Below are positions 22,922 to 52,969 of a DNA stretch of 64,000 nucleotides, in pieces (position 1 is the first letter of the stretch; each line of letters opens with the position of its first letter). Origin of the DNA: Alicyclobacillus sp. SO9 (GTDB taxonomy: Bacteria; Bacillota; Bacilli; Alicyclobacillales; Alicyclobacillaceae); NCBI RefSeq assembly GCF_016406125.1, contig NZ_CP066339.1:1984001-2048000 (forward strand). The letters are read 5' to 3'. Below the pieces are notes generated by a model. The model had not been told where the DNA came from. It searched no databases and was given only the letters and a program-made list of their open reading frames with translations. Position numbers and translations under genes: made by a program.

Positions 22922-22927
22922 GCCCCC

Positions 22928-25053: not shown

Positions 25054-25084
25054 AGGTATGTCTAAACTTTTAGGGGGTATCGCA

Positions 25085-26866: not shown

Positions 26867-26888
26867 GTCTAGTCACGTGCAGTCATGT

Positions 26889-26921
26889 GAGGTAAGGAAG
26901 CCGTATCAGCTTCCTTACCTC
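26889..26921 (+). other. Intra-operon stem-loop after the binding-protein gene
   Basis: GAGGTAAGGAAGC (26889-26901) pairs perfectly with its complement at 26909-26921 around a seven-base loop. No T-run follows, and the permease ribosome site comes directly after it. Such hairpins usually stabilise the upstream message or partly terminate, giving more binding protein than permease. Confidence 0.65.
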
Positions 26922-26937
26922 GTAAGGAGGGTGGAGC

Positions 26938-27903: not shown

Positions 27904-27913
27904 GAGGTGTAGC

Positions 27914-28807: not shown

Positions 28808-28834
28808 TGAATTCTCTTGAAGTAGGTGTGAGGT

Positions 28835-30845: not shown

Positions 30846-31556
30846 ATGGACAATAACGAATTGCTAGAGAGTATCCAAAACGGCCTCATCGTTTCTTGTC
30901 AGGCATTAGACGACGAACCTCTGTTTGGGGCTGAAATTATGGGGCGAATGGCGTTGGCAGCAAAAATGGGTGGAGCAGTAGGAATCCGAGCGAATGGCGC
31001 CCAGGACATTCGAGAGATTAAGAGAGTTACGGACCTTCCTACAATCGGCATTGTCAAGCGGGCCTATGAAGGCTCAGAGGTATACATTACGCCAACCATG
31101 AGAGAGGTTGATGAAGTCGTCTCCGCAGGAGCAGACATCGTGGCGGTAGATGCTACGAATCGGGTGCGTCCGGGCGGCTTGATGGCGAAGGAATTTCTTG
31201 AGTCCATTCGAGTAAAGTTTCCGGATGCGCTTGTCATGGCGGATATTTCGACATTTGCGGAAGGATTAGCAGCGGTGGCGGCAGGCGTAGATATCATCGC
31301 GACAACGCTGTCCGGCTACACTGCTTACAGCCGGCAAGCCGTTAGTCCAGACTTCCGATTGATGCGTGAGTTGACGCATAAGGTCAATGTTCCCGTGATT
31401 GCTGAAGGAAGGATCGGAAAGCCTGAGGAAGCCGTAAGGAGTTTCGAGAATGGCGTGTTCGCTGTGGTGGTCGGGTCAGCCATTACACGACCTCAAGAAA
31501 TTACACGTACATTCGTAGAGGAGTTGCAAACCATACGGAAGATACGTTCTATATAA
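30846..31556 (+). CDS. nanE: N-acetylmannosamine-6-phosphate 2-epimerase
   Basis: NanE interconverts ManNAc-6-phosphate and GlcNAc-6-phosphate in the cytoplasm. The 236-residue TIM barrel shows the family's start (GLIVSCQALDDEPLFGAEIM), the lysine-bearing strand IGIVKRAYEGSEVYITPT, DIVAVDATNRVRPGG, the glycine-rich phosphate site TTLSGYT and PVIAEGRIGKPEEA near the end, and matches the family's length. It follows the ABC transporter genes by 21 bases and precedes nagB by 19. This ties the imported substrate to amino-sugar metabolism. Confidence 0.93.
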   Translation: MDNNELLESIQNGLIVSCQALDDEPLFGAEIMGRMALAAKMGGAVGIRANGAQDIREIKRVTDLPTIGIVKRAYEGSEVYITPTMREVDEVVSAGADIVAVDATNRVRPGGLMAKEFLESIRVKFPDALVMADISTFAEGLAAVAAGVDIIATTLSGYTAYSRQAVSPDFRLMRELTHKVNVPVIAEGRIGKPEEAVRSFENGVFAVVVGSAITRPQEITRTFVEELQTIRKIRSI

Positions 31557-31575: not shown

Positions 31576-32352
31576 ATGGAGATTACATTGGTATCAACCT
31601 ATCAGAAGCTGAGTGAGGTTGCTGCGGACTATGTACAAGAAACGATGAAGTCCCGTGCTCATTGCGTCTTGGGTCTGGCTACGGGGGAGACTCCTGTCGG
31701 CCTATATGCTCAGCTGGTACGACGCTATCGAAGGAGAGAAATTTCTTTTAAAAACACGACCACCTTTAATCTTGACGAATATGTGGGATTACGGCCTGCA
31801 GACGAGTCGAGTTATCACTACTATATGCACCGTCATCTGTTTCGTCACGTCGACATGGACGTCAATAAAATTCACATTCCCCTGGGTGCCGCGGCGGATT
31901 TGGAGGGGGAGTGCAGACGCTATGAATATGCTATTGAGGATTCAGGCGGCATAGATTTGCAGATTCTCGGCATTGGCAGAAACGGGCATATTGGTTTTAA
32001 CGAACCGGGATCAACTTGTACAGGCAGAACGAGAGTAGTGCAGTTGGAGGCAAGTACTCTGGAAGCGAATGCGCAGTATTTTCCGTCCGTTCAGGATATG
32101 CCGCACGAAGCGATTTCTATGGGAATCGGCACGGTTCTGGAGCAAAGTCGACACATTTTGTTGCTTGCTTCCGGTGCGGCAAAGGCCGCCGCGGTTGAAA
32201 AAATGTTGTCAGCGGACGAGACAACGGGAAAGCTGCCTGCCTCGTGTTTACAACTGCACCCTAACGTCACATGTGTGCTGGACTATGACGCTGCGGCAAA
32301 TCTATCAGATTCCGTTGTAAGAGAGAACAGGGTACTAGAGGGCGGGGTGTAG
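31576..32352 (+). CDS. nagB: Glucosamine-6-phosphate deaminase
   Basis: NagB converts glucosamine-6-phosphate to fructose-6-phosphate and ammonia, feeding glycolysis. The 258-residue protein has LGLATGETPVGLYAQL (phosphate loop), FNLDEYVGL with the catalytic aspartate, and the active-site stretch IGRNGHIGFNEPGS with the ring-opening histidine near residue 138. It lies between nanE and a ROK kinase, spaced 19 and 5 bases. nagA, which should make its substrate from GlcNAc-6-phosphate, is not in the window. Confidence 0.94.
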   Translation: MEITLVSTYQKLSEVAADYVQETMKSRAHCVLGLATGETPVGLYAQLVRRYRRREISFKNTTTFNLDEYVGLRPADESSYHYYMHRHLFRHVDMDVNKIHIPLGAAADLEGECRRYEYAIEDSGGIDLQILGIGRNGHIGFNEPGSTCTGRTRVVQLEASTLEANAQYFPSVQDMPHEAISMGIGTVLEQSRHILLLASGAAKAAAVEKMLSADETTGKLPASCLQLHPNVTCVLDYDAAANLSDSVVRENRVLEGGV

Positions 32353-32357: not shown

Positions 32358-33299
32358 TTGAAAGAACATAGCATTGGCATTGACATTGGCGGGACCAAAA
32401 TCGCTGCAGCAGTCATATCGGAGGAGGGAAGTATTTTACATAGGAGAGTGTGTCCTACACCTACAGCAGGTCAGGAGTTTGTCATTGAGAAACTGAAAGA
32501 GCTCATTGACGACTTACTGTTCTGGTGTCAACAAGCCAGTATTTCTGTCAAGGGAATTGGCGTTGGGACTGCAGGTCAAATTGACTTTGCGACGGGAAGG
32601 GTTTTAACCGGCACCACCAATATTAAAGACTGGAATGACATCCCGCTGCGCAGTGTCTTAACAAAACACTCTTTGTTGCCTGTGTGGGTTGATAATGATG
32701 TCAATGTACTTACGATTGCTGAACAAAAATTTGGAAGCGCCGTCGGAGAAAAAAATGTCATCTGTCTGTCTTTGGGTACTGGCGTTGGCGGCGGTCTGAT
32801 TGTAGATGGGCAGTTAGTCAGAGGAATGTTTGGTGCGGCAGCCGAACTAGGTCACATTTCAGTGAACATGAACGGCCCTCAATGTAACTGCGGCTTCAAG
32901 GGCTGTCTGGAAACCTACGCGTCTGGAACCGCTATAGCTCGAATGATGAATGAGCGTTTGAACAAGACCGACGAAGTCCAGGCGGATTCAGCTTTAACCA
33001 GTCGACAGGTCTTCGACTTGTATCACCAGCAGCATTCTACTGCAATTGAAGTGGTCAATGAAATGACCGAAGCACTGGCGTTTGCCATTGTGAGTCTGAT
33101 TCATACGTTCAATCCGTCGGTCGTGGTGCTAGGCGGAGGTGTCATGGATAGCGGTACTTGGATAGCAGAGCTTGTCAACGGCAAGGTCAAGAAATTAGGT
33201 ATTTCTTCAATGGTGCAACCTGTACGAATCACCCGAACAAAGACCGGTGTGGATGCATCAGTCATTGGGGCAGCATACCAGTGTTGGCTGTACCAATAA
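32358..33299 (+). CDS. ROK-family sugar kinase (probable N-acetylmannosamine or hexosamine kinase)
   Basis: The 313-residue kinase has the ATP phosphate loop GIDIGGTKIAAAV at the N-terminus and LSLGTGVGGGLIVDG in the second lobe. The ROK zinc motif appears as ELGHISVNMNGPQCNCGFKG with the catalytic-region ExGH. It has no DNA-binding domain, so it is an enzyme rather than a repressor. Relatives phosphorylate glucose, ManNAc or GlcNAc; its place right after nanE and nagB favours ManNAc or GlcNAc. It probably starts at TTG 32358, with GAGGGCGGGG upstream. Confidence 0.85.
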   Translation: MKEHSIGIDIGGTKIAAAVISEEGSILHRRVCPTPTAGQEFVIEKLKELIDDLLFWCQQASISVKGIGVGTAGQIDFATGRVLTGTTNIKDWNDIPLRSVLTKHSLLPVWVDNDVNVLTIAEQKFGSAVGEKNVICLSLGTGVGGGLIVDGQLVRGMFGAAAELGHISVNMNGPQCNCGFKGCLETYASGTAIARMMNERLNKTDEVQADSALTSRQVFDLYHQQHSTAIEVVNEMTEALAFAIVSLIHTFNPSVVVLGGGVMDSGTWIAELVNGKVKKLGISSMVQPVRITRTKTGVDASVIGAAYQCWLYQ

Positions 33300-33321: not shown

Positions 33322-34380
33322 ATGGCCAAAATAAAAATTGCGGTTATCGGAGCTGGCACTATTGCGCAAATCGGACATCTTCCATATTACCGAGATGAGA
33401 CTGGTGTGGAACTTTGTGCGGTCGTAGATGTCAACTTGGAAAGGGCCACGGATGTGGCTCGAAAGTTTGGAGCGAATGCCGCTTACAGTGATGCCAAAGA
33501 AATGTTTGAAAAGGAAAACGTGGATGCGGTTAGCATCTGTACCACAAATCAGAGTCATGTAAGTCTGTCGAAACTAGCATTTAGCTACGGCGTGGATGTT
33601 CTGGTAGAGAAACCTCTGGCTGTGAGTTCTGCTGAAGCTTGGGAGCTAGTAAATGAAGCAGAGCGTGCCAAATGTATCTGTATGGTGGGTATGAGCCATA
33701 GGTTCAGAAATGAGTCCCAGGCTCTTAAACGGTTTATTGAAGCCGGTGACTTAGGAGATATTTACTATGCCAACGCTAAGATTCTTAGAAGAAGGGGTAC
33801 GCCCACTGGCTGGTTTACCGACAAATCAAAATCAGGCGGAGGACCGCTGATGGACATCGGTGTCCATGTTCTGGATTTAGCTTGGTGGTTAGTGGGGAAG
33901 CCCGTCCCGGCTCGTGTTTCCGGACAACTGGTCAAGAAAATTGGCCGCTATGAAACAATCATGTCCTCACGCTGGCAAAGTGCAGACAGCGCCAATAGGG
34001 ACAACAGTATTTTTGATGTCGAAGACTTTGCAAGTGCATATATTCGTTTCGAGAACAACATGGTGATGAACCTTGAAGTGAGTTGGGCTCTGAACGGTCC
34101 GCAAGACGATGCGCTCAAGGTGAATATCTACGGTGACAAAGGAGGAGTATCTCTCGATCCGCTGCGCTTTTACTCCGAACACAATCACATTTTGTCGGAA
34201 TCTGCTCTCTCTGTGCAATCAAACGATCAAATGAAAGATGAAATTTCCCACTTTATCGAATGCGTTCAAAGACGTGAAACACCGTTACCCTCCGTACATG
34301 AGGGCGCGCAGATTGTTGATATTTTAGAAGCCATTCACGCGTCGTCTGAACTGAACCGTGAAGTCATCATACAGAAGTAA
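33322..34380 (+). CDS. Gfo/Idh/MocA-family sugar dehydrogenase (first of a tandem pair)
   Basis: The 352-residue protein starts at ATG 33322 behind AGGAGGAG; in-frame codons further upstream lie inside the kinase gene. It has a Rossmann loop IAVIGAGTIAQIGHLP, the lysine motif DVLVEKPLAVSS near residue 96 and the substrate-domain signature SGGGPLMDIGVHVLDLAWWL near 172-193. The second Gfo/Idh gene at 35289 has nearly the same arrangement (RRxGxPxGWF followed by SGGGPL), so they look like paralogues. They flank an isomerase/epimerase gene. The pair may oxidise two related substrates or carry out oxidation and later re-reduction. Confidence 0.87.
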   Translation: MAKIKIAVIGAGTIAQIGHLPYYRDETGVELCAVVDVNLERATDVARKFGANAAYSDAKEMFEKENVDAVSICTTNQSHVSLSKLAFSYGVDVLVEKPLAVSSAEAWELVNEAERAKCICMVGMSHRFRNESQALKRFIEAGDLGDIYYANAKILRRRGTPTGWFTDKSKSGGGPLMDIGVHVLDLAWWLVGKPVPARVSGQLVKKIGRYETIMSSRWQSADSANRDNSIFDVEDFASAYIRFENNMVMNLEVSWALNGPQDDALKVNIYGDKGGVSLDPLRFYSEHNHILSESALSVQSNDQMKDEISHFIECVQRRETPLPSVHEGAQIVDILEAIHASSELNREVIIQK

Positions 34381-34440
34381 AGGTGTAAATCGCTGCAACC
34401 TCTAGATTGAAAACGTGGAACGGGAGACAGGAGGCCCACT

Positions 34441-35265
34441 ATGAAGTTAGCCGTAAGCATGTGGAGTGTACATCGAAAGTTCTTTCATGACGGTTGGAAC
34501 GTTCTGGATTTTCTTGATTTTTGCCGAGAGCACGGGTTCTCGAATGTAGAGCTGCTGGACGTGTTTTGGAAAGACCAATCAAGTGAACTGCCGAAGGTGA
34601 AGGACTTTCTTCGGAAAAACGGCATGACTGTGGCTGCCTATGCAGTCTCAAACGATTTCGCAAAGGAAGCTGCAAGTGACCGAGAAAAAGCTGCAAAGGT
34701 CATCCTGAACGGCATTGAACTTGCGAAGGAACTTGAGACACAAGTCGTGCGCGTGTTTGCTGGGGACTTAAAACCGGGATCGGAATTTCAAAACAGTGTG
34801 GGCTATATCGTTGAGGGCTTTCGGAGCGTAGTTGCAAAGGCGGAAGCAGAAGGCATCGTTTTGGCTCTAGAAAACCATGGGAAACTGGCTGGTAAAGGTG
34901 AACAAGTTCGTCATATTATTCGCGAAGTAGGCAGTAACAGCCTCCGGTCAACTTTTGACATGGGTAATTTCATATTAGTAGACCAAACTGCCCTCCGAGC
35001 CTTTGCGGAACTGGGTACCTTGGTTGCGCATGTGCATGTGAAGGATTTCAAACAAGCAAATCATGGTGAGGGGCTTCAGGGTGTTAATGAAAAGTGGTTT
35101 GTGTCGACCGTTTGTGGCTTGGGTGAAATCCCTATATCCGAAGTGCTGCGAAAGATCCGCTCATCCGGCTATGACGGCTATGTGTCCCTGGAATATGAAG
35201 GTGATGGAGATGAAGTCTCCGGTGTGTTAGACAGCATGGAATATCTTCGCAAGTATATCAACTAG
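34441..35265 (+). CDS. Sugar phosphate isomerase/epimerase family TIM-barrel protein
   Basis: This 274-residue AP_endonuc_2-type barrel begins MKLAVSMWSVHRKFFHDGW. It shows VLALENHGKLAGKGEQ with a metal-binding glutamate, STFDMGNFILVD with an aspartate, VAHVHVKDFKQ with a histidine, and YVSLEYEGDGDE with the last glutamate. The residue set fits a divalent-metal enzyme. It sits between two Gfo/Idh dehydrogenases. The nearest characterised roles of the family in such surroundings are inosose dehydratase, keto-sugar epimerases and 3-keto-glycoside lyase subunits. ACAGGAGG precedes the ATG. Confidence 0.85.
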   Translation: MKLAVSMWSVHRKFFHDGWNVLDFLDFCREHGFSNVELLDVFWKDQSSELPKVKDFLRKNGMTVAAYAVSNDFAKEAASDREKAAKVILNGIELAKELETQVVRVFAGDLKPGSEFQNSVGYIVEGFRSVVAKAEAEGIVLALENHGKLAGKGEQVRHIIREVGSNSLRSTFDMGNFILVDQTALRAFAELGTLVAHVHVKDFKQANHGEGLQGVNEKWFVSTVCGLGEIPISEVLRKIRSSGYDGYVSLEYEGDGDEVSGVLDSMEYLRKYIN

Positions 35266-35288
35266 CTGTATCTGAAAGGGTGACTTTA

Positions 35289-36350
35289 ATGAAACCTTTA
35301 AACGTCGCGGTTATCGGTGCGGGTTCTATTTCAGACCTACACCTCAAGTCTTATCAAAAAAACCAGCAAGCCGCTATCGTAGCCATTTGCGACATAAATG
35401 AGGGTCGAGCTCGCGCCAAGGCTGCAGAATACGGCATCGAACGTGTCTATACAGACTATCACAAGTTGTTGGAGGACAGAGAAGTAGAGTCTGTAAGCAT
35501 TTGCACGTGGAATAACTTGCATGCTCAGATTGCGATGGATGCATTAAGGTCTGGGAAAAATGTCCTAGTTGAAAAGCCTTTGTCCCGGACGCTGGAAGAA
35601 GCTTTGCAGTTACAACAAATTGTAAAGGAAACCGGAGGACTGCTGCAGGTTGGCTTCGTTCGCAGGTATGCTTCGAACACAGAAATTCTAAATCGATTTA
35701 TTCAGGCGGGTGAACTAGGAGAAATCTATTACTCCCGCGTCTCTTGTCTGAGACGGCTTGGCAACCCTGGCGGGTGGTTCGCAGATGTTGAACGTTCCGG
35801 CGGTGGTCCGCTGATTGACCTTGGCGTTCACATCATAGATATCGCTTGGTATTTAATGGGGAGACCCAAGGTTAAATCGATTAGCGGCAACACATATTTG
35901 AAACTAGGCAACCGAAGCAACATTCAGAACTTGTCTTTTTATCAAGCATCTGATTATGACACAAGTAGAAATACAGTCGAGGATTTTGCCAATGCCCTTA
36001 TTCGTTTCGAAAATGGTGCGTCTATGACAGTGGACGTAAGCTACACTCTGCATGCGAAGGAAGACGAGCTGATTGTGAAGTTATATGGAGAAAAAGGCGG
36101 AGCTGAAATTGAGCCGGAGTTAGCTATTGTTTCAGAAAAATACGACACAATTTTGAACGTAACACCACAAGTAGATAACCGGGGACTTGATTTTGTCGAA
36201 GCATTTCAGAATGAAATTAATCACTTTGTTGGTTGCAGTCAGAATCATACAGAGTCCCGCAGTCCGGTGGATGACGGCGTTGAAATCATGAAAATGTTAG
36301 TGGGTATCTATGAATCAGCTCAAAAGGGGACAGAAATTTATTTTGATTAA
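35289..36350 (+). CDS. Gfo/Idh/MocA-family sugar dehydrogenase (second of a tandem pair)
   Basis: The 353-residue protein is taken from ATG 35289, which has AAAGGG about eight bases upstream; GTG 35280 is an alternative. It shows the Rossmann loop VAVIGAGSISDLHLKS, the lysine motif VLVEKPLSRTLE near residue 95 and SGGGPLIDLGVHIIDIAWYL. It closely parallels the product of 33322 in length and motif order, indicating a duplication followed by insertion or retention of the isomerase gene between them. It is followed by an MDR dehydrogenase gene; Gfo/Idh and MDR domains occur fused in some bacterial two-domain oxidoreductases. Confidence 0.87.
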   Translation: MKPLNVAVIGAGSISDLHLKSYQKNQQAAIVAICDINEGRARAKAAEYGIERVYTDYHKLLEDREVESVSICTWNNLHAQIAMDALRSGKNVLVEKPLSRTLEEALQLQQIVKETGGLLQVGFVRRYASNTEILNRFIQAGELGEIYYSRVSCLRRLGNPGGWFADVERSGGGPLIDLGVHIIDIAWYLMGRPKVKSISGNTYLKLGNRSNIQNLSFYQASDYDTSRNTVEDFANALIRFENGASMTVDVSYTLHAKEDELIVKLYGEKGGAEIEPELAIVSEKYDTILNVTPQVDNRGLDFVEAFQNEINHFVGCSQNHTESRSPVDDGVEIMKMLVGIYESAQKGTEIYFD

Positions 36351-36388
36351 ACTGTTGAGGGTTGTGTCTTGATAAATTGGGAGTGTTT

Positions 36389-37396
36389 GTGTTGAGACGA
36401 CTTGTCGCTGTGAATGGATTGGTAAAAATTGAAGTCTGCAGTGAACCGACTATGACTGAGCAAAGTGTTCTGATACAGACGCACTTTTCGGCCATTAGCC
36501 CTGGCACTGAGTATAAACTCATTGAGAGTTCACGGGAATCGCCTGTCCCTCTTGGTTACAGTGCAGCAGGTACTGTCCTGGCTGTCGGAAGCAAGGTCCT
36601 TGGCATCAAGGAGGGAGACAAGGTGGCTTGTTACGGAGGACCGTTTGTGACGCATTCGGAACGGCTGGTGGTTCCTCAAAACCTCTGTGTAAGGTTGCCA
36701 GACGATGTGTCGTTAAGTGATGCTGCCTTCGTCGGTTTGGGTGCCATTGCTGTCCACGGCGTACGAAGCCTGGGAATTCAATTTGGTGAAATTGTGGCAA
36801 TTTTCGGCTTGGGTTTGCTTGGCCAACTCTCCACACAACTTTGTCATGAAGCGAATTACCTTTCCATTGTTACCGATTTATCAGAAGTCAGGCGCGGTCG
36901 GTTACTGAATCACTACAGTACTGCAAGCGGTGTACAAGTGCTTGACAGCTCACATTTCAGTGCAGCCATAAGTGAGGCTTCCGGTGGCGGCGGTGCAGAT
37001 GCAGTCCTGATATGTGCTCACTCCCTTCAATCTGGACTCCTTGATGCTGCTTTAGAGGTTGTCCGATATCGCGGACGCGTGGTTATAGTAGGCAACATTC
37101 CTGTGGAGTGCTCACGAGAAAAAATGTTTCAGAAAGAAGTTGACGTCCAAGTTTCTCGAGCTGGTGGAATAGGAAGGTATGATGAGGGCTATGAAAACCG
37201 CGGAATAGACTTTCCAAGAAGTCTGGTTCGATGGACAGAAGGTAGAAATATGCAGGAAGTGATTCGCTTGCTGGCGTCTGGTCGACTCGACATCGATTCA
37301 CTTGTAACACACCGCATTGCGTTCAATGATGCTCCCAGCGCATATACGGAGATGAAGCAAGAGTCGGATTTTATGGCAGCAGTCCTATCGTACTAG
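36389..37396 (+). CDS. Medium-chain dehydrogenase/reductase, zinc ligands not apparent
   Basis: A roughly 335-residue protein of the MDR (alcohol dehydrogenase) fold. The GroES-like N-terminal domain shows SAISPGTEYKLIESS and VPLGYSAAGTVLAVG, then KVACYGGPFVTHSE, and the NAD(P)-binding domain has IFGLGLLGQL. The usual catalytic zinc motif CxD..GHE is absent (SPGTE, GYSAAG), so it resembles the zinc-free or threonine-dehydrogenase-like group often found beside, or fused to, Gfo/Idh proteins. The start is uncertain: GTG 36389 with GGGAG seven bases upstream is preferred, and TTG 36392 or 36362 are possible. It lies in the operon 38 bases after a Gfo/Idh gene. Confidence 0.78.
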   Translation: MLRRLVAVNGLVKIEVCSEPTMTEQSVLIQTHFSAISPGTEYKLIESSRESPVPLGYSAAGTVLAVGSKVLGIKEGDKVACYGGPFVTHSERLVVPQNLCVRLPDDVSLSDAAFVGLGAIAVHGVRSLGIQFGEIVAIFGLGLLGQLSTQLCHEANYLSIVTDLSEVRRGRLLNHYSTASGVQVLDSSHFSAAISEASGGGGADAVLICAHSLQSGLLDAALEVVRYRGRVVIVGNIPVECSREKMFQKEVDVQVSRAGGIGRYDEGYENRGIDFPRSLVRWTEGRNMQEVIRLLASGRLDIDSLVTHRIAFNDAPSAYTEMKQESDFMAAVLSY

Positions 37397-37437
37397 ACTA
37401 TTTTCAGGACAGACATCCATATTTGGAGGTGAAGCTG

Positions 37438-39471
37438 GTGGCCGAGTTGGTTGTGAATCCAGATTTCCGAGACCGGAAGGAAGGCGAGTCTACGGCAACC
37501 GGCTGGTTTGAAAAACCTGACCGGAATACGTTCGAATATGCGATTGAAGCAATTCAATTGGGCGGTGTAACCAGGAGCATCCAAAAGGTTATCGGATCTG
37601 GTCGCGGAGATGGATACATCTGGCAAAAAATTGACGTTACACCAGGGACCTATCGACTCAGCGGGACACTGAAAACACAGGGAGAAATTAGTTCCCAGTT
37701 AAGGCTCTTCTTTATGGATGAAAACGAGAAAATTATCCGTCGAGAAATATCACGAACGGTGCTCGGCAATAGTGACTGGGAGCGTATTTCAGTAGTGTGT
37801 GAATCCCCGCCTGAAGCCAAAAAAGCACTCCTGTTTGCCATCTCATACACAGTCTTTGAAGAAGCATCTTGCAGTTGGTCACACATTAGTCTTCAGCCAA
37901 TCACTGATTCGACTGACGAAACAACAGGGACAACAGGAAGTGAAGCCGCAGAATTAGAAGACGTTGGCGTTTCGAGACCGGGCGTTGTCTCGTCTACAGA
38001 TGAGGCCCCTGTTATTATCCCACGTCCACAAAGGATAAGCTGGGACACGTCGGTCGCATTTCGCCTCTCGCCGGCCGTTGTTATCGTACCAGAGGGAGAC
38101 ATGTTTCTTGAGGAGATACAGCGGGTCGCTGAGTACTTTAGCGTGTTTGTGAAGACCGAGCTTGGAATGGATATCAGGGTTGCGACATCGGACCAGGCAA
38201 CGGTATTAATGGAAACTATTTTGTTACGCATAGGCAGTCCGAGGGAACATCAGGGTGCAGATAAAGACACCCAGGAAATTCTGCGGACACGCGCTGAGTC
38301 CTATTGTTTGGAGATTGAGCGGAACAGGGTCACAATCACGGGACACGATGCTCGAGGACTCTTCTTTGGAGTTCAGAGCTTCATTCAAATCATCAACGGA
38401 TTGCAAAATTCATCGCAAAACGAATTGCAAACCACAGGCAAGACGGAGCAGTACTATCTTCCGGGATGTGTGATAGTTGACTACCCTGACCTTGAGTGGC
38501 GCGCTGTACATATCTTTATTGATTTTCTTTCACAAGACTTTACAAAAGCACTCATAGACAAAATTTTATGCCGCTATAAATTTAATGCACTTGTGATTGA
38601 GTGCTCGAGCGTTAAATGGGAATCCCATCCGGAAATCTGGCGGGAATCTGCTGTTGAAACCGATAAATTACGCGATCTCGTTGACTATGCAAAACGCCGT
38701 TTCATGGAAGTTATACCGCTGGTTCAGTCTTTAGGACACTGCCAGTGGCTGTTTGCCAATGGACAAAACGTCGATATTTGCGAGGACAGAGACAATCCAT
38801 ATGCCTACAATCCGCTCAATGACAGGTCGTACTCCGTAATGTTTGAAATCTACGATGAAGCCATTGAAGTATTTCGACCAAAGCTGTTTCATATTGGACA
38901 CGATGAAGTTCGCATGGTTGGAAGCTTCCCTAAATCTGCGCAAGGAAAAGAAAAGGGATTCGAATCATTGTTTGTACAGGATACAAATCGAATTTCTCAG
39001 CATTTAGAGAGCCGTGGTGTAAGACCAATGATGTGGGCGGATATTATTCAGGAACCGACGTTTCAACCATATCTCTCAAAGATAGATTCCTCTCTGTTTA
39101 TGGTGGATTGGCAATACACTCCTTTTCGAGCGTACCAAGGTATTGAATTCTTGCGAAATGAAGGATTTGATGTCATCGGGTCAGCCTGGCATAATCCGCA
39201 AAATATTTTTTACTTTACTAAACATGTAAAGGAAATCGATGGCTTAGGAATGCTTCAAACCACCTGGACGGGTCATTTTGGAAGTACGTGTGCGTTAGCG
39301 ACAGACATGAAACAATACATTGCACATCTTTACGCTGCCGAGATGAATTGGAATGTAGACGGCTATGGGTCTGTAGCTGCACTACCCTATGATTCGCAAA
39401 AACTCGTCAAGACTGCACTGGAGGAAAACACTGTGACCGGGGAAATTCCAGACTGGGGAAGGAATTGGTGA
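37438..39471 (+). CDS. Intracellular family GH20 beta-N-acetylhexosaminidase-like enzyme
   Basis: The 677-residue protein starts at GTG 37438 (GGAGGTG six bases upstream); it has no signal peptide. Residues 1-165 form a beta-sandwich resembling a carbohydrate-binding domain (TPGTYRLSGTLKTQGE). Residues 200-345 match the GH20b domain, starting at IPRPQRISWD. The TIM barrel (about 350-650) holds the catalytic Asp-Glu pair in FHIGHDEVRM near residue 485, the GH20 signature in which the aspartate orients the substrate's 2-acetamido group. Release of GlcNAc or GalNAc from imported oligosaccharides fits the nanE and nagB genes of the same operon. Confidence 0.85.
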   Translation: MAELVVNPDFRDRKEGESTATGWFEKPDRNTFEYAIEAIQLGGVTRSIQKVIGSGRGDGYIWQKIDVTPGTYRLSGTLKTQGEISSQLRLFFMDENEKIIRREISRTVLGNSDWERISVVCESPPEAKKALLFAISYTVFEEASCSWSHISLQPITDSTDETTGTTGSEAAELEDVGVSRPGVVSSTDEAPVIIPRPQRISWDTSVAFRLSPAVVIVPEGDMFLEEIQRVAEYFSVFVKTELGMDIRVATSDQATVLMETILLRIGSPREHQGADKDTQEILRTRAESYCLEIERNRVTITGHDARGLFFGVQSFIQIINGLQNSSQNELQTTGKTEQYYLPGCVIVDYPDLEWRAVHIFIDFLSQDFTKALIDKILCRYKFNALVIECSSVKWESHPEIWRESAVETDKLRDLVDYAKRRFMEVIPLVQSLGHCQWLFANGQNVDICEDRDNPYAYNPLNDRSYSVMFEIYDEAIEVFRPKLFHIGHDEVRMVGSFPKSAQGKEKGFESLFVQDTNRISQHLESRGVRPMMWADIIQEPTFQPYLSKIDSSLFMVDWQYTPFRAYQGIEFLRNEGFDVIGSAWHNPQNIFYFTKHVKEIDGLGMLQTTWTGHFGSTCALATDMKQYIAHLYAAEMNWNVDGYGSVAALPYDSQKLVKTALEENTVTGEIPDWGRNW

Positions 39472-39478
39472 TGCGGTG

Positions 39479-40588
39479 ATGAGCGATACTCCGAGCGTAC
39501 AAGTAGGGTGGAAAGCTATTTTGAGAAGGTGTGTAGGGCCGGTACGGACTTATTTTGATTCGATGCTGCGCGGCATGGGAACAGACGACACCCACTTATT
39601 TGATGAGGAATTAGGACAGAGGGCGAGTTGTTGTACGACAGGGCAAGCGGCTTGTTTGTATACATTAGACGCTATCCTTACAGGTGGCGACGGCAAAGAG
39701 ATTGCCGTTGACTTAATGAAGGATGTAGAACGTCGGCAACTTCCCTCCGGAGGCTTCAGTCAGCCCTATTACCGCAAAGCAGGAGAAAAGGAAGTTGTGG
39801 ATATTGCTGAGATTGGGGCTGTTGCCAATAGTCTCTATCACGTGTGGAGGCATACAGGAAGTGATATTCCCGCTATCATTTTGAAGCGAAGTGCGGACTA
39901 TTTGATAACTCAAAAGGTACCTCTGCACAGCGGTGCAGTCTACAAAAATCCAAATGCTGTCGATGATGTTCTGAACGGTGATATCTATGCAGCTCATACT
40001 TGGGCGCGTGCATTTCAGGTGACGAGGGACTCATCCTACGCTGAGGAAGCTAAGAAGACACTACACCATGTAGGAAATGCATTTAGTAGACACGAGAGCG
40101 GGTGGTGGCCTTACACTGAGACGTGGGCGGGCGAAATTGCCATGGGAAACAGTGTCAGTTATCAGGCCACAATTATAGCATTTGCGCACACATGCCTCGA
40201 AGTCATGCCGGCAGAAGTAACAACGCGGTGGATGCACATCATCAATGAAGCCACAGGTACCATTGCTCGGTGCCTGTCAGAACCACCGTCAGAGTTCGTA
40301 GAGGTTCCTTGGTGGTCCCGGGACTGGAAAAACACGTGGGAAATTTACCTCGCGTTGTGGCGTTCCAGAACGAGCAAAGGTCCATCGGACATTGTAAATC
40401 AGAGAATGAGAGAGGTAGTGCAGGATTTGGAACACGACGGAGTTCTGTGCTTTTCTCCGAAGATTCTGTCGGAAGATAGAACCCGGACACCGGTATCTAC
40501 GACGTTTCGCAAGACAGCCACTTTTGCAGGAATTTTATCCTATATGGCGCTTGACGAAGGTGTCGTACAGGGGGCGGACGTCTTATGA
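39479..40588 (+). CDS. Unknown protein, probable helical (alpha/alpha) toroid
   Basis: I do not recognise this 369-residue protein. It is rich in paired helices with repeated small-residue turns (GQAACLYTLDAIL, IAEIGAVANSLYHVW, AAHTWARAFQVT, SYQATIIAFAHTC), and RRQLPSGGFSQPYY resembles the Q/DGGF turns of alpha/alpha toroids such as terpene-cyclase-like or six-hairpin glycosidase folds. There is no signal peptide. Tryptophan-rich patches (SGWWPYTETWAGEI, EVPWWSRDWKNTW) could line a sugar-binding cavity. It starts seven bases after the GH20 gene and overlaps the next isomerase gene by four bases, so it is a firm part of the operon. Possible roles are glycosidase, lyase or epimerase. Confidence 0.7.
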   Translation: MSDTPSVQVGWKAILRRCVGPVRTYFDSMLRGMGTDDTHLFDEELGQRASCCTTGQAACLYTLDAILTGGDGKEIAVDLMKDVERRQLPSGGFSQPYYRKAGEKEVVDIAEIGAVANSLYHVWRHTGSDIPAIILKRSADYLITQKVPLHSGAVYKNPNAVDDVLNGDIYAAHTWARAFQVTRDSSYAEEAKKTLHHVGNAFSRHESGWWPYTETWAGEIAMGNSVSYQATIIAFAHTCLEVMPAEVTTRWMHIINEATGTIARCLSEPPSEFVEVPWWSRDWKNTWEIYLALWRSRTSKGPSDIVNQRMREVVQDLEHDGVLCFSPKILSEDRTRTPVSTTFRKTATFAGILSYMALDEGVVQGADVL

Positions 40589-41403
40589 AGAAGGGGGTGA
40601 ACCAATTTTCAATGCCTGAGCATTGGAGCTTGACAACCATTTTTGAAATGGTTAAAAATGCCGGGTTTGACGGGATTGAACTGAACCTTGGTGATTCAGG
40701 TGAACTGTCCTTAACTTCCAGCGACAGTCACATCGAATCCGCAGCAAGGGAAGCCGAAGCAGTTGGGGTTGACCTGCCAAGCGTTGCAACAGCATTGTTC
40801 TGGAAGTATAGTCTCACACACAACGAAGCCGGGATTCGAGACAAGGCTTATGGTATTGCAAAACGGCTGATTGACGTCGCGGTAATGATGAAAGTTTCAA
40901 CTGTTCTCATCGTTCCTGGTCTTGTCGATGCGGACACCCCTTACGATAAGGCATATGAAAGAGCAGTTGAACAATTGCAATCTATTGGAGAATACGCACG
41001 GCAACAAAACGTCCAGGTCGCGGTTGAAAACGTCTGGAACAGGTTCTTGCTTAGTCCATTGGAGATGCAACGGTTTCTTCGAGACATCGATAATCCATTT
41101 GTCGGCGTGTACTTCGATGTTGGAAATGTACTCGCGTATGGATTTCCTGAACACTGGATTGATATTTTAGGGAATAAAATATTTGCTGTTCATGTAAAAG
41201 ATTTCAAAAACGACATCGGTAATATTCGAGGCTTTACCACTTTGCTGCACGGTGACGTAGATTGGCATGCTGTCATTACAAAGCTTAAAGCCAGTGCTTA
41301 TGACCATTATCTGATGGCTGAGATCCCGCCGCACAAGTATCCTGAAAGATTTCTGCAGGAAATATCAACAGCACTGGATTTCATTATGGAGGTGGATAAT
41401 TGA
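40585..41403 (+). CDS. Sugar phosphate isomerase/epimerase family TIM-barrel protein
   Basis: The 272-residue barrel shows NAGFDGIELNLGDSG, VQVAVENVWNRFLLSP with the first metal-binding glutamate, GVYFDVGNVLAYGFP, IFAVHVKDFKND and HYLMAEIPPHKYP, a complete set of likely metal ligands. It overlaps the upstream unknown gene by four bases (ATGA) and the downstream Gfo/Idh gene by one, so all three are translationally coupled. It is the third isomerase/epimerase-plus-Gfo/Idh pairing of the window and differs in sequence from the ones at 14753 and 34441. Confidence 0.85.
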   Translation: MKKGVNQFSMPEHWSLTTIFEMVKNAGFDGIELNLGDSGELSLTSSDSHIESAAREAEAVGVDLPSVATALFWKYSLTHNEAGIRDKAYGIAKRLIDVAVMMKVSTVLIVPGLVDADTPYDKAYERAVEQLQSIGEYARQQNVQVAVENVWNRFLLSPLEMQRFLRDIDNPFVGVYFDVGNVLAYGFPEHWIDILGNKIFAVHVKDFKNDIGNIRGFTTLLHGDVDWHAVITKLKASAYDHYLMAEIPPHKYPERFLQEISTALDFIMEVDN

Positions 41404-42404
41404 TGGTAAATGTCGTGGTTGTTGGAGCAGGCACAATGGGAACTATGCATTCTACATCCTTCGCGAGGATGGAAGGTGTGCAAGTGGTCGGCATTGTCGA
41501 TATTCGGGCAGAATACGGTAACAAATTAGCGAGCAAAATCGGCACCCAGGCATTCCTGTCACTGAATGATGCATTGACGAGTCAGGAGGTTCATCTCGTT
41601 GATATCTGCGTCCCTACGTACCTGCATCGGCAATACGTAGAACAAGCAGCAGATGCAAACTGCCATGTCATTTGCGAAAAGCCGATTGCCCTGACACTAT
41701 CTGACGCCAACGCCATGATGGACGTCTGTGAACGGGCGGGCGTCAAATTTTTTGTCGGGCACGTTCTGCGGTTTTTCCCAGAATACCAAAAGTCACACCA
41801 ACTTGTTCAACAAGGAAGGGTGGGAGATGTCGGAATCGTGCAGGCCGGGCGCGGAGGTGCATTTCCAAATGGATGGCAAGATTGGTATGCCAGCATCGAA
41901 AAGAGTGGAACCCTAATTACTGATATGATGATTCATGACTTCGATTTTCTGCGCTGGTGCTTTGGAGAGGTGAAACGTGTTTACGCAAAGAGTAACTGGG
42001 GGCGTGACTTGAATAAAATCGACCATGCCTTTGTTACGCTGCGCTTCAAGAGTGGTGTCATTGCCAGCGTAGAGGGAACTTGGGCGTATCCTGACGGGTT
42101 TACCACCTCTCTGGAGATTGCAGGAAAGGGAGGTATCATCGCACGGCACAGTGACGAGGAAGCCCCGATTCATACATTCTTACGAGAGGACGGCACGAAT
42201 ACTGGAGGCGTCGCTGTTCCGGAGAGTCCACTGCTGAAGGGACCCTATTACTTAGAACTTGAGCATTTTATCGACTGTATTATTCATGACACAACACCTC
42301 TGGTTTCTCCCCATGATGCGTATAAAGCCCTGCAAATCAGTCTAAGTGCTCTTCAATCCATCCGTACAGGAATTCCAGTTTATATAGAGGAGGAGACTTT
42401 ATGA
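41403..42404 (+). CDS. Gfo/Idh/MocA-family sugar dehydrogenase
   Basis: A 333-residue protein starting at ATG 41403 within TGATG, behind GGAGGTGG. It has a Rossmann loop VVVGAGTMGTMHSTSF, lysine motif HVICEKPIALTLSDA near residue 92, and MMIHDFDFLRWCFG in the substrate domain, with aspartates where others have VHxxDL. It is coupled to the upstream isomerase gene and, by an ATGA overlap, to another Gfo/Idh gene downstream. Similar proteins include inositol 2-dehydrogenases, but the substrate is open. Confidence 0.86.
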   Translation: MVNVVVVGAGTMGTMHSTSFARMEGVQVVGIVDIRAEYGNKLASKIGTQAFLSLNDALTSQEVHLVDICVPTYLHRQYVEQAADANCHVICEKPIALTLSDANAMMDVCERAGVKFFVGHVLRFFPEYQKSHQLVQQGRVGDVGIVQAGRGGAFPNGWQDWYASIEKSGTLITDMMIHDFDFLRWCFGEVKRVYAKSNWGRDLNKIDHAFVTLRFKSGVIASVEGTWAYPDGFTTSLEIAGKGGIIARHSDEEAPIHTFLREDGTNTGGVAVPESPLLKGPYYLELEHFIDCIIHDTTPLVSPHDAYKALQISLSALQSIRTGIPVYIEEETL

Positions 42405-43384
42405 AAGTAGGGATCGTAAGTTTCGCACATCTTCATGCGTATACGTATGCCGATGCCTTGTTAAATATGGAAGATGTAGAACTATGTGCAATTTCTGATG
42501 GTAATGCCGCTCGCGGACGAGAGGCGGCCAAACGGTTTCGCACACGGTACTATGGGGATTATCACGAAATGCTGCAAGAGGACCTAGATGCGGTTGTCGT
42601 TTGTACAGAAAACTCAAGGCACGCTGAGGTGGTCATTGCAGCAGCAGAGGCAGGTAAACATGTGCTTTGTGAAAAGCCAATTGCCACCACGGTAGAAGAT
42701 GCCAAGCAAATGATTGAGGTTTGCGAACGAAACAACGTCATTTTGCAAATTGCCTTTCCAGTGCGTTTTTGCGCCCCAATTCAGAGACTGAAACAAATGA
42801 TTTTGGATGAGGACCTAGGTCGTATCATTGCAATTAAAGGTACAAATCGAGGTCAAAATCCAGGCGGCTGGTTCGTCGACAAGAATCTCTCTGGAGGCGG
42901 AGCTGTCATGGATCATACGGTTCACGTGATTGATTTGATGAGATGGTTTATGGGAAGTGAAGTCAGAGAAGTGTATGCCGAAGTCGACACAGTGTTTAAC
43001 GATATTCCCGTGGACGATTGCGGCATTCTGACGTTGGAGTTTGAGAATGGAGTATTTGCCTCTCACGACCCCAGTTGGTCCAGGGTGAAGTCGTATCCGA
43101 CGTGGGGAGATGTAACCCTCGAAGTCATTGGAACAAAAGGTGTAACCAAAGTAGATGCCTTTTCGCAACATGTTACTTTGTACAGTGACCTGGACAACCG
43201 AGTCTCTGAAGAATTTTGGGGGGATTCAATGGACATTGAACTGATAAGAGACTTTCTTTCCTGTATCAAGGAGCATCGCTCGCCAAGCATTACTGGTACA
43301 GATGGACTTAAGGCTTTAGAAGTAGCATTGGCTGCGTATCAGTCTGCAGAAACAAATCAACCTGTGAAACTAACTCACAGATAG
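42401..43384 (+). CDS. Gfo/Idh/MocA-family sugar dehydrogenase (last gene of the long operon)
   Basis: The 327-residue protein has an unusual N-terminus, MKVGIVSFAHLHAYTYADAL, in which the GxGxxG loop is replaced by a SFAHLHA stretch. The rest is standard: lysine motif HVLCEKPIATTVEDA near residue 92 and SGGGAVMDHTVHVIDLMRWF near 163-182. Proteins with this SFAHxHA type of start form a separate branch of the family. It overlaps the previous gene by four bases. A 139-base gap then leads to the LacI-family gene. Confidence 0.85.
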   Translation: MKVGIVSFAHLHAYTYADALLNMEDVELCAISDGNAARGREAAKRFRTRYYGDYHEMLQEDLDAVVVCTENSRHAEVVIAAAEAGKHVLCEKPIATTVEDAKQMIEVCERNNVILQIAFPVRFCAPIQRLKQMILDEDLGRIIAIKGTNRGQNPGGWFVDKNLSGGGAVMDHTVHVIDLMRWFMGSEVREVYAEVDTVFNDIPVDDCGILTLEFENGVFASHDPSWSRVKSYPTWGDVTLEVIGTKGVTKVDAFSQHVTLYSDLDNRVSEEFWGDSMDIELIRDFLSCIKEHRSPSITGTDGLKALEVALAAYQSAETNQPVKLTHR

Positions 43385-43523: not shown

Positions 43524-44531
43524 ATGGCGACACTAAAGGATGTAGCGCGTGCCGCAGGCGTGTCAACGGCAACCGTGTCGCGGGCACTTGGCGGTACTGG
43601 TTATGTCTCCGATGAAGTGAAACATCGCGTTATGGCAGCGGTAAAAGATTTAAATTATCAAATGAACGGTATTGCGCGGAGTCTTCGAAACGCAAAGACG
43701 AATACTATCGGCGTTTTAGTTCCTGATATTTCCAATCCGTACTTCATGGAGATCATCCGTTCTTTTGAAGAAGATGTCAGTTCCAGCAACTATAATATCT
43801 TGGTGGCGAGTTCAGCAGAGACCCCCGAAAAAGAGCAGAAACTAGTCGAAGTTTTCGTTGAAAAGCGTGTAGACGCCATTGTTTTGGCAACCTGCCAGGA
43901 AGATGTCAGTCGTTCCGTCGCGGCCTGTCAACAAGGCGGTGTTCCTGTACTGCTCATTGATAGGTCTGCTGCCAACATTGACGTGGATACAGTTGTTGAA
44001 GAAAGTGTGTCTAGTACGTATGAAATTGTGAAATACCTGATTTCTTTAGGACATCGTAAGATTTCTATGATTAATGGAAGTGCGCCAATTAGTACGATTT
44101 CGGAACGGGAAAGAGGATTTCGCCAAGCGCTTGAGGATTTTAAGGTGCCACTGGTTCCAGAATACATACAGCATGGTGAATTTACACAGGAAAGTGGCTA
44201 CTATTTAGGTAATCGATTACTTACCTTGTCAGACCCGCCAACGGCGATATTTTGTTCCAACAACTTTATTACCGTCGGGCTTATGGTTGCTGCGAACAAC
44301 TTGAAGGTACGCATACCGGAAGATGTTTCTGTGGTGAGTTTCGGAGAGCTGTTATTACCAGAGTTGATTCAACCCCGGGTGACGGCGGTCATTCAAGACC
44401 CAGAGAAGGTAGGGAAAATAGCCAGCCGTATTTTGCTTCACAGGATTGAGGATAAGAGTTTAACCGCGACAGAGCGCACCGTTTTATCAACGTATATCCG
44501 CTTAGGTGATTCAGTTTTGCCGAGGAGTTAG
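43524..44531 (+). CDS. LacI/GalR-family transcriptional regulator
   Basis: The 335-residue protein has the classic LacI headpiece MATLKDVARAAGVSTATVSR at residues 1-20 and the hinge helix around 45-60 (NGIARSLRNAKTNTIG). The periplasmic-binding-like effector domain follows, with VLVPDISNPYFMEIIRSFEE, RVDAIVLATCQ, GHRKISMINGSA and PTAIFCSNNF. The full length suggests a functional regulator that releases DNA on binding a sugar. It separates the long ABC/Gfo-Idh operon from the GH78/TRAP/fucose genes and could control either. A strong self-operator candidate lies 15 bases upstream. Confidence 0.93.
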   Translation: MATLKDVARAAGVSTATVSRALGGTGYVSDEVKHRVMAAVKDLNYQMNGIARSLRNAKTNTIGVLVPDISNPYFMEIIRSFEEDVSSSNYNILVASSAETPEKEQKLVEVFVEKRVDAIVLATCQEDVSRSVAACQQGGVPVLLIDRSAANIDVDTVVEESVSSTYEIVKYLISLGHRKISMINGSAPISTISERERGFRQALEDFKVPLVPEYIQHGEFTQESGYYLGNRLLTLSDPPTAIFCSNNFITVGLMVAANNLKVRIPEDVSVVSFGELLLPELIQPRVTAVIQDPEKVGKIASRILLHRIEDKSLTATERTVLSTYIRLGDSVLPRS

Positions 44532-44647
44532 TCGAATTGTCAAAAGGTATTGCTGGTGGAGAAGCAGGGTTGTGCAATCTCGTAAACATATCATTTGAAT
44601 ATTGGAAATAGGCGGAATTTTATGTCTTTTGGAAGGGGTGAGGATAC

Positions 44648-47182: not shown

Positions 47183-47255
47183 TCGCGTTACAAGGGGGTG
47201 GACGTCAACTGAGCAATGGGTCGCATTTCGTACTAAATCTAAGGGGGATATTCTA

Positions 47256-48335: not shown

Positions 48336-48344
48336 GTCAATTTA

Positions 48345-48370
48345 GCGGAGGACTGCCAGGGGTCCTCCGC
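48345..48370 (+). other. Intra-operon stem-loop after the TRAP binding-protein gene
   Basis: GCGGAGGAC (48345-48353) pairs with GTCCTCCGC (48362-48370) around an eight-base loop. No T-run follows and the next gene starts 20 bases later. It probably stabilises the dctP message or causes partial termination. Confidence 0.6.
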
Positions 48371-48389
48371 CCTGCGTGGGGGTGTAAGT

Positions 48390-50185: not shown

Positions 50186-50200
50186 GTGAGGAGGAGTGTC

Positions 50201-51088: not shown

Positions 51089-51159
51089 TTACAGAGCTAG
51101 AGATTTAATAGTCCATAAACAGCTACAAATGACGTCAGCATGATTGGGAGGCACAAGAC

Positions 51160-52947: not shown

Positions 52948-52969
52948 GCTTGATGGAGGGGGATTCTCA

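Follow-up and report, generated by a model that had tools for sequence, protein, structure and literature searches.

A candidate oxidise–eliminate deglycosylation module linked to NanE in Alicyclobacillus sp. SO9

What chemistry is served by a run of genes in which Gfo/Idh dehydrogenases alternate with AP_endonuc_2 barrels, directly behind genes for amino-sugar catabolism? Such a run lies in the stretch of Alicyclobacillus sp. SO9 DNA analysed here (64,000 nucleotides, hereafter the window; part of the 5.29 Mb genome G000). A sequence-only reading of the window had proposed that these genes oxidise and then eliminate glycosides in the manner of the DgpA–DgpB/DgpC enzymes. We find oxidise–eliminate chemistry to be the best-supported reading of the locus, though an unproven one: a cytoplasmic module that would oxidise, eliminate, hydrate and reduce, coupled to import and amino-sugar catabolism and releasing N-acetylmannosamine (ManNAc) or N-acetylglucosamine (GlcNAc), to which we assign a probability of roughly 0.45. 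The part of this that sequence comparison supports directly comprises the gene content, a DgpA-type first dehydrogenase (Gfo1), the metal positions and Glu-x-His motif of the first barrel (Bar1), and conserved linkage to NanE without NanA; it is this last that is truly new.

Gene order

Nine consecutive + strand open reading frames (ORFs) at 33322–43384 read Gfo/Idh, AP_endonuc_2 barrel, Gfo/Idh, MDR, glycoside hydrolase family 20 (GH20), toroid, barrel, Gfo/Idh and Gfo/Idh, and are named Gfo1, Bar1, Gfo2, MDR, GH20, Tor, Bar2, Gfo3 and Gfo4 in that order. The ORF list and Pfam families confirm the packing and order described from the sequence alone; the overlaps between genes prove to be three, each of 4 bases (40585/40588, 41400/41403 and 42401/42404), with remaining gaps of 4 to 60 bases, and no unassigned gene of at least 100 amino acids in the ORF list fits between the nine. 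The run starts further 5′, with an SBP5–DppBCDF importer (25058–30824) and then NanE, NagB and ROK directly before Gfo1. Much of this gene set recurs across other genera and classes, so the arrangement is not due to chance. No signal peptide is visible by eye in any of the nine proteins, and their chemistry would therefore be cytoplasmic.

Dehydrogenases

All four Gfo/Idh proteins match PF01408 (E 6e-28 to 8e-32) plus PF22725/PF02894. Gfo1 (33322–34380, +; 352 amino acids from an internal ATG, the mechanical ORF starting at 33247), the proposed glycoside 3-dehydrogenase, is of the DgpA type by profile comparison: searched against solved structures, a profile of 13 orthologues scores 240 bits with DgpA (7xr9), 224 with DgpA1 (9m3d) and 124 with the best non-DgpA entry. 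K97, D178 and H182, which we take to be the Lys-Asp-His catalytic residues, are invariant in these orthologues (13/13). Gfo2 (35280–36350, +) is YcjS-like; by blastp, E. coli YcjS is 33% identical to Gfo2 (E 4e-60), 31% to Gfo1 (E 3e-58) and 26% to both Gfo3 and Gfo4, and Gfo2 copies in other Bacillota loci share 46–70% identity.

Gfo3 (41400–42404, +), a proposed 3-keto-sugar reductase, has NanY as its nearest E. coli reference (31%, E 2e-29), comes closest to IolG among the models and reaches 208 bits with TIGR04380 (cut-off 355); its orthologues are 55–61% identical within the family Alicyclobacillaceae, and 45% identical over a partial ORF in locus L091. Gfo4 (42401–43384, +), a proposed 3-keto-sugar reductase or second dehydrogenase, keeps 50–67% identity among 11 aligned sequences, and its profile scores best with an unnamed dehydrogenase (3ezy, 177 bits; DgpA 115). 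The LgdA equivalog gives 86 to 127 bits for Gfo1–4 (Gfo1 118) against a cut-off of 650. UDP-GlcNAc 3-dehydrogenase, the best NCBIfam model of Gfo4 and Gfo1, was rejected as an assignment at 194 and 137 bits against a cut-off of 450. The zinc-type MDR dehydrogenase (36362/36404–37396, +; ADH_N and ADH_zinc_N) has a 45% identical homologue in Clostridia clusters and a weak likeness to YcjQ (25%).

Barrels

Bar1 and Bar2 match AP_endonuc_2 (PF01261) at 119 and 148.5 bits (cut-off 31.1). In Bar1 (34441–35265, +), the proposed 3-keto-glycoside β-eliminase, E144-N-H146, D173, H199 and E251 are invariant in 16/16 sequences, and in 27/27 Bar1-type rows of a larger overlapping set. E144, D173, H199 and E251 are the four metal-ligand positions, which are not specific to Bar1 since most other aligned barrel rows share them. 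Its Glu-x-His (E-N-H) aligns with E-I-H of DgpC1 and E-T-H of AsbF; the same position reads E-N-H in 4ovx, E-N-Y in Art22, E-N-M in MJ1311, E-P-L in YcjR and E-T-G in six of eight rows labelled BarX, while five rows of a further barrel type carry Glu-x-His and four rows His-x-His. The accessible text of one study proposes the matching His of AtOGE and PuCGE as catalytic base, placed to abstract H2, and reports that AtOGE H134A is inactive and that enzymes of the CGE group carry Glu as first ligand (PMC10628242). This is what favours an eliminase role for Bar1; because other barrel types also carry Glu-x-His, the motif is support for that role, not proof.

By profile, Bar1 is nearest to Art22 (134 bits), followed by 4ovx (89), MJ1311 (58), AsbF (55), DgpC1 (49.5), UlaE (36) and IolE (36). 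Its structure model (predicted local distance difference test, pLDDT, 92) matches Art22 at Z 34.9, 4ovx at 30.7 and YcjR at 26.9 (rank 36), with epimerases, isomerases and YcjR clustering closely below the first two; Foldseek places AtHYD at rank 7 and DgpB–C at rank 28. Going by this model, fold alone does not decide the function of Bar1. A literature search on the function of Art22 (8Z1I) gave nothing relevant.

Bar2 (40585–41403, +), a proposed hydratase or epimerase, has E-N-V without His at the motif in 10/10 rows (one a partial ORF). Its profile is nearest to UlaE (70 bits), MJ1311 (60) and D-tagatose 3-epimerase (51), and its best NCBIfam model is L-ribulose-5-phosphate 3-epimerase (PRK13210, 88.8 bits, cut-off 200). 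Likeness to YcjR by blastp is slight (Bar1 E 0.04, Bar2 E 0.13).

The DgpA/DgpC-like logic put forward from the sequence alone is partly supported, by Gfo1 and by the metal positions and Glu-x-His of Bar1; Bar2 lacks the His and lies nearest ketose 3-epimerases. In the comparison with DgpC that it called for, the Bar1 motif aligns with DgpC1 and the fold is nearest Art22, which is not decisive. Scores do not bear out the counter-case named there, a grouping of the barrels with hydroxypyruvate isomerase or inosose dehydratase: TIGR03234 gives Bar1 47.9 bits (cut-off 353) and is not among the NCBIfam models listed for Bar2, and IolE gives 35.8 and 31.3 bits (cut-off 290).

A third barrel, BarX, recurs elsewhere in Bacillota (L014 12978–13826, L065 11293–12177, L069 6060–6923, L074 8319–9191, L099 5481–6383 and L126 4919–5779). 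These copies are 55–88% identical to that of L014 across distant Bacillota, and lie near Gfo2 homologues in L014, L074, L099 and L126.

Linkage to NanE

The genes before Gfo1 include those of amino-sugar catabolism. An RpiR/SIS regulator, NanR-like by context (23890–24753, +; HTH_6 and SIS), precedes an Opp/Dpp-type ATP-binding cassette importer (25058–30824, +; one SBP5 protein, two permeases and two ATPases; SBP_bac_5, BPD_transp_1, and ABC_tran with oligo_HPY), whose second permease (27914–28807, +) is assigned from the ORF list and from 49–71% identical homologues beside DppB in related loci rather than from a domain scan. NanE, N-acetylmannosamine-6-phosphate 2-epimerase (30846–31556, +), scores 226.8 bits with PF04131 and 305 with NF002231 (cut-off 189), and is 44% identical to E. 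coli NanE. NagB, glucosamine-6-phosphate deaminase (31576–32352, +; TIGR00502 290.5 bits, cut-off 236.9), is followed by a ROK sugar kinase (32358–33299, +; PF00480 235 bits), a proposed ManNAc/GlcNAc kinase for which ROK_glcA_fam is the best NCBIfam model (247.5 bits, cut-off 260) and the NanK models stay under cut-off.

Conservation was followed in 41 Alicyclobacillaceae genomes (family set), 59 genomes of the order and 398 drawn from the phylum. Family presence was called at E ≤ 1e-100 for Gfo1 and Bar1 and by model cut-off for NanE and NagA; E. coli NanA served as query for NanA, at E 1e-15 for loci and 1e-10 for genomes. Neighbourhoods were picked by similarity to Bar1 or Gfo1: the fetched loci cover 10/13 family Bar1 loci at E ≤ 1e-100 (G414, G415, G437 and weaker ones left out) and 14/17 genomes matching in a further search (G750, G786 and G787 left out), and a two-sequence Gfo1 alignment scan of named genomes gave 22 loci, ten of them annotated and 12 (L023–L034) not. 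The Bar1-locus table holds 34 loci, one per genome (L014 = G384, L015 = G726 and L013 = G417, each counted once), several of them short contigs of metagenome-assembled genomes (MAGs). Genes outside the window were called by a simple ORF script with approximate start codons, and names given 'by eye' to unlabelled ORFs were read from the first residues only.

Gfo1 occurs in 15 of the 41 family genomes and NanE in 13, with both in 12 and neither in 25 (only Gfo1 in G405, G417 and G437; only NanE in G434). This co-occurrence has a Fisher p of 7e-7 by genome and 0.006 by genus (both in 8/16), values that ignore relatedness. Every one of the 13 genomes with Bar1 also has Gfo1, and NagA is above cut-off in 38/41, G000 included. 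Thirteen of 14 family NanE loci are near Gfo/Idh or barrel genes (12 of the cluster types, one a more distant Gfo/Idh): NanE is 51 to 1793 bases from Gfo1 in nine genomes, about 1 kb from Bar1 in G426, beside Gfo2, Gfo3 and Bar2 homologues in G434, beside Gfo3 and Gfo4 homologues in G435, and, in G415, beside a Gfo/Idh that is more distantly related (30% to Gfo4), the genome's own Gfo1 lying a long way off. The fourteenth is a second NanE of G000 itself, in a canonical-looking NagA–NagB/NanA–NanE cluster (L109 6053–10159; G000:C1:4560573–4564604) where it adjoins a probable NanA with NagB and NagA close by. E. coli NanA matches all 41 genomes, strongly only in G000 (184 bits); the best matches elsewhere, of 94 to 128 bits, we read from their scores as DapA-like paralogues. 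In the other genomes with NanE and Gfo1, which have no clear NanA, ManNAc or ManNAc-6-phosphate (ManNAc-6-P) should accordingly come from elsewhere.

Within the family, DppBCDF, Bar2, RpiR, NanE, ROK, Gfo1 and Bar1 occur together in G398, G403, G404, G418, G419 and G420, with Gfo3–Gfo4 in five of these six clusters (none in the G404 stretch) and GH20 in G398 and G404. The order DppBCDF–(GH20)–Bar2–RpiR–NanE–ROK–Gfo1–Bar1 is seen in L101, L102 and L104, GH20 being present in L101 and L104 and absent from L102; Gfo3–Gfo4 come next in both L101 and L102, but the L104 stretch shows neither. L088–L090 carry the importer, Bar2, RpiR, NanE, ROK, Gfo1, Bar1, Gfo3 and Gfo4 in a different order and without GH20; G424 reads NagB–NagA–RpiR–NanE–ROK–Gfo1–Bar1–Gfo3–Gfo4; NagB and NagA are present in L091, with no importer in the stretch; and A. 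mengziensis (L013) has Gfo1–Bar1–Gfo3–Gfo4 without NanE beside them.

Beyond the family the association persists, which supports the sequence-only reading, where the enzymes had been joined to nanE. Of the 34 loci, 14 have NanE no more than 4 kb from Bar1, nine in the family and the others in three further lineages (G384/G726, G718 and G264/G785); two more loci have NagA without NanE (G743, G747), 27 have a Gfo/Idh gene within 10 kb, and 12 of the 33 loci other than the window have an RpiR-homologous regulator. NanA at E 1e-15 is found in 0/34, window positions 24001–45000 included. G718 reads Gfo2–Bar1–BarX–NanE and also has ROK and an RpiR gene, the latter sharing 51% identity with its counterpart in the G420 cluster. 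G384 combines SBP5–DppBCDF, a heparinase II/III-type protein, NanE, Gfo1, Gfo2, Bar1, BarX, MDR, an M55 peptidase and Tor, the layout found in L014 and L015 (Clostridia and Thermoanaerobacter MAGs). Among the annotated Gfo1-scan loci, L019 (Caldanaerobacter) holds a more distant Gfo–Gfo–barrel–barrel block, and the remaining six hold more distant Gfo/Idh genes and no cluster.

The thermophilic Clostridia versions (L014 6156–15684, L015 6162–18135) carry the heparinase II/III-type protein, whose best solved relative is an oligo-alginate lyase, with an M55 D-aminopeptidase; a GH4 gene lies near the NanE–Gfo1–Bar1 genes of L015.

Hydrolase, toroid protein and neighbouring genes

GH20 (37423–39471, +), a β-N-acetylhexosaminidase with catalytic and GH20b domains (PF00728 and PF02838), keeps the HIGHDE motif, presumably the holder of the catalytic pair, in 3/3 homologues, and adjoins Bar2 in L101 and L104. 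Tor (39476–40588, +) matches no Pfam or NCBIfam family at E 0.001. Its model, of middling confidence (pLDDT 71.7, predicted template modelling score 0.80), matches AGE/cellobiose 2-epimerase, GH88/GH105 and GH76 folds at Z up to 25.8 (Foldseek and VIA), so that the label 'toroid' is supported by a predicted (α/α) barrel. AGE enzymes need a His near the C terminus; no His of the C-terminal region is conserved in three aligned Tor sequences, and Tor was not called a GlcNAc 2-epimerase. Tor occurs in 6/398 phylum genomes, the window's own included. In the order it occurs in 1/59 genomes, again the window's own, with none of the remaining 58 matching at E 0.001, and it therefore does not belong to the core. 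Four Tor genomes out of six (family f15) have it apart from the cluster, and three of these four have one Gfo/Idh in the stretch.

Upstream, window positions 9365–15523 hold a divergent second Gfo/barrel block with two Gfo/Idh genes, a Pfam-less protein, a ROK/MarR regulator, a short Gfo whose Rossmann domain is part-matched, and a barrel with His-x-His like AtOGE. A DUF4855 protein with an F5/8 type C domain (16490–18214, −), with relatives in L015, L088–L090, L103 and L105, is possibly a polymer-attacking enzyme of the system. It is followed at 18645–23731 by a GH38 α-mannosidase, an ADP-ribosylglycohydrolase-family protein and a calcineurin-like phosphoesterase, homologues of which are divergent to NanE in L088–L090, L100–L104 and L107. 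Downstream, 43524–54637 forms a separate sugar unit: a LacI regulator (at 43524), a GH78-like protein, tripartite ATP-independent periplasmic transporter genes (TRAP DctPQM), a DHDPS-family protein, L-fucose isomerase and an AraB-like kinase.

In L096 (a Bacilli locus, 1–19901), Gfo2, Gfo4 and a Bar1-like barrel stand alongside GH38, GH2 β-mannosidase-type, Asparaginase_II and GHL6 genes and, by eye, GH3- and fucosidase-like ones, a content suggestive of glycoprotein glycan use. GH38 beside the window cluster and the content of L096 hint that the substrate may be a glycoprotein or N-glycan, but no endo-glycosidase or glycoasparaginase was shown.

Mechanism and alternatives

Two unlike barrels together with Gfo/Idh enzymes match the layout of LgdB1/LgdB2 and of AtOGE/AtHYD, which is one ground for reading the module as eliminase, hydratase and reductase. 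We infer which reactions Gfo1–4, Bar1 and Bar2 carry out, in what order and on what substrate, and also which sugar is oxidised. The Opp-type importer would take up an oligosaccharide with N-acetylhexosamine (HexNAc), from which GH20 would remove terminal β-HexNAc. Gfo1, possibly with Gfo2, would oxidise C3 of a sugar residue with bound nicotinamide adenine dinucleotide (NAD); Bar1, as a divalent-metal barrel, would use His146 to take H2 and expel the C1 substituent, leaving a 3-keto-glycal; Bar2 would hydrate this, and reduction of the resulting 3-keto sugar by Gfo3/Gfo4 would give ManNAc or GlcNAc. ROK would then phosphorylate the product, NanE convert ManNAc-6-P to GlcNAc-6-P, and NagB, with a NagA whose gene is at another place in the genome, lead to fructose-6-phosphate. 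Alternatively, Gfo1 itself may reduce the last product and so recycle its NADH. DgpA is described as following a ping-pong mechanism in which a 3-oxo sugar serves to recycle the bound NADH (PMC11239390), so that Gfo1 could couple glycoside oxidation to that reduction.

The place of ManNAc in this scheme fits two accounts: ManNAc may be part of the imported glycan, or C2 may be scrambled along the 3-keto route, since H2 is the acidic proton and hydration may reprotonate either face. GH20 enzymes release GlcNAc or GalNAc (N-acetylgalactosamine), not ManNAc, and yet the partners that are conserved are NanE and, in most cases, a ROK kinase. On the second account a GlcNAc-type glycoside would be oxidised at C3, its aglycone eliminated to give a 2-acetamido-3-keto-glycal, and C2 flipped on rehydration so that reduction yields ManNAc without sialic acid. 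Such a route is tentative and, on balance, doubtful; it would explain why conservation beside the DgpA-type and DgpC-like enzymes takes in NanE and ROK and leaves out NanA.

Several observations weigh against oxidise–eliminate chemistry of this kind. Among the barrels, Glu-x-His is not exclusive, occurring in AsbF and other types; Art22, the nearest solved relative of Bar1, bears the title of an isomerase and reads E-N-Y in place of E-N-H; TIGR03234, far under its cut-off as it scores, is the best NCBIfam model of Bar1; and Bar2 resembles ketose 3-epimerases and does not match AtHYD at E 1e-6. The cluster shows no DgpB-like partner, a second subunit peculiar to the C-glycoside enzymes, though no dedicated DgpB search was made. 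Neighbourhoods are also uneven: 18 of the 34 Bar1 loci have no NanE, NagA or NagB in the fetched stretch, several of these being short MAG contigs; G264 and G785 read NanE–Bar1–RpiR and hold no Gfo/Idh gene over some 20 kb, which speaks against Gfo1 and Bar1 being an obligatory pair; NanE and Gfo1 sit on different contigs in G435 and G426; and in G414 (L103) the NanE–Gfo1 pair has neither ROK nor Bar1 next to it, Bar1 being found on a different contig, where it adjoins a second copy of Gfo1. Of the other Alicyclobacillaceae clusters that were read, none showed Tor or MDR and G434 alone showed Gfo2, whereas all three are in Clostridia clusters. Finally, the characterised D3dgpA is glucose-specific, which tells against HexNAc as the substrate, and does not react on galactosides, rhamnosides or glucuronides, N-acetyl sugars going unmentioned in the accessible part of that report (PMC11239390).

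That glucose specificity suits a different division of labour, in which an ordinary glucoside or other hexoside is what the Gfo and barrel enzymes act on, and NanE, ROK and NagB separately salvage ManNAc or GlcNAc from the same imported oligosaccharide, such as a secondary wall polymer containing ManNAc or a glycoprotein glycan. The flanking GH38, DUF4855, GH78-like and L-fucose isomerase genes, the company of GH38, GH2 β-mannosidase-type and Asparaginase_II genes in L096 and the absence of an adjoining NanE in A. mengziensis are in its favour. NanE, however, stays near Gfo1/Bar1 in distant lineages with differing hydrolases, which product flow explains more easily than a shared co-substrate, and we consider separate salvage unlikely, if the likeliest of the rivals.

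Next, and also unlikely, is sugar editing of the Ycj type, with C3 oxidation by Gfo1/Gfo2, epimerisation by a barrel at C2 of HexNAc or at C4, reduction by MDR or Gfo3/Gfo4 and later cleavage by GH20 or another hydrolase. YcjS is 31–33% identical to Gfo1 and Gfo2, the Gfo, barrel and MDR composition equals that of YcjS/YcjR/YcjQ, epimerase/isomerase families are suggested both by Bar2 and by the kinship of Bar1 with Art22, and inversion at C2 would account for NanE as well. Yet neither Bar1 nor Bar2 resembles YcjR in sequence (structural comparison does list YcjR among the Bar1 matches), the E-N-H of Bar1 faces E-P-L in YcjR, and the other Alicyclobacillaceae clusters lack a visible MDR, with the Gfo2 restriction noted above.

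That IolG-type dehydrogenases and barrels of the IolE or isomerase type metabolise free sugars or inositol is highly improbable, and this reading was rejected: IolG is the first or second NCBIfam model for Gfo1–4 (129–208 bits), and the best barrel models are hydroxypyruvate isomerase (Bar1, 48 bits) and ribulose-phosphate 3-epimerase (Bar2, 89 bits), but all are far under cut-off (IolG 355, IolE 290, hydroxypyruvate isomerase 353, PRK13210 epimerase 200) and Gfo1 is DgpA-type. Least probable of all, and rejected with it, is a sialic-acid pathway in which Gfo3 is a NanY-like 2,7-anhydro-N-acetylneuraminic acid hydratase and the cluster feeds sialic-acid-derived ManNAc to NanE: the Gfo3–NanY similarity and the typical nan genes NanE, ROK, NagB and RpiR speak for it, but neither the cluster nor any of the 34 Bar1 loci has a NanA match at E 1e-15, the family's one strong NanA lies by the second NanE of G000, and Gfo1, Bar1 and Bar2 would be left unexplained.

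Glucosides, levoglucosan and plant C-glycosides are already known substrates of oxidise–eliminate deglycosylation. A conserved form of it coupled to ManNAc-6-P breakdown would, if true, extend such chemistry to amino sugars, point to glycosidic bonds poorly handled by hydrolases and explain orphan nanE genes without nanA.

Comparison with known systems

A literature search, with subscription papers outside its scope, found no report of this gene combination and chemistry. A Bacteroides pathway, BT2156–BT2160, is reportedly described in work from 2024.

The cluster resembles the DgpA–DgpB/DgpC systems of gut bacteria in its DgpA-type Gfo1 and in the metal positions and Glu-x-His that Bar1 has in common with DgpC1; unlike them it has two barrels, four Gfo/Idh, an importer, GH20 and NanE/NagB/ROK, and Bar1 is overall nearer Art22 and 4ovx than DgpC1. 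With LgdA-B1-B2-C of Bacillus smithii it shares Gfo/Idh enzymes and two unlike 'sugar phosphate isomerases', the levoglucosan pathway proceeding by oxidation, elimination, hydration and reduction; Gfo1 is far under the LgdA cut-off, however, and Lgd is described, in the accessible text, without amino-sugar genes (PMC7676230). The Agrobacterium phlorizin pathway (GlycDH–AtOGE–AtHYD–Gfo) offers a single-chain Mn eliminase, a second barrel (AtHYD) and a Gfo/Idh; the study describing it shows the deglycosylation steps for phlorizin and puerarin. The pathway differs in a first oxidation by a flavoenzyme and in the His-x-His of AtOGE, where Bar1 has Glu-x-His (PMC10628242). E. coli YcjQRS is matched by the YcjS-like Gfo1/Gfo2, a barrel and an MDR gene, whereas the cluster barrels are not YcjR-like by sequence and the transporter and hydrolases differ. 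To sialic acid (nan) clusters, lastly, the likeness lies in NanE, ROK, NagB and the RpiR regulator, and the difference in NanA, not found here, whose place is taken by Gfo/barrel genes. RpiR-type NanR of Streptococcus and Vibrio bind ManNAc-6-P, according to the accessible part of a preprint (PMC12713135); by analogy, ManNAc-6-P may be the effector of the cluster's own RpiR regulator.

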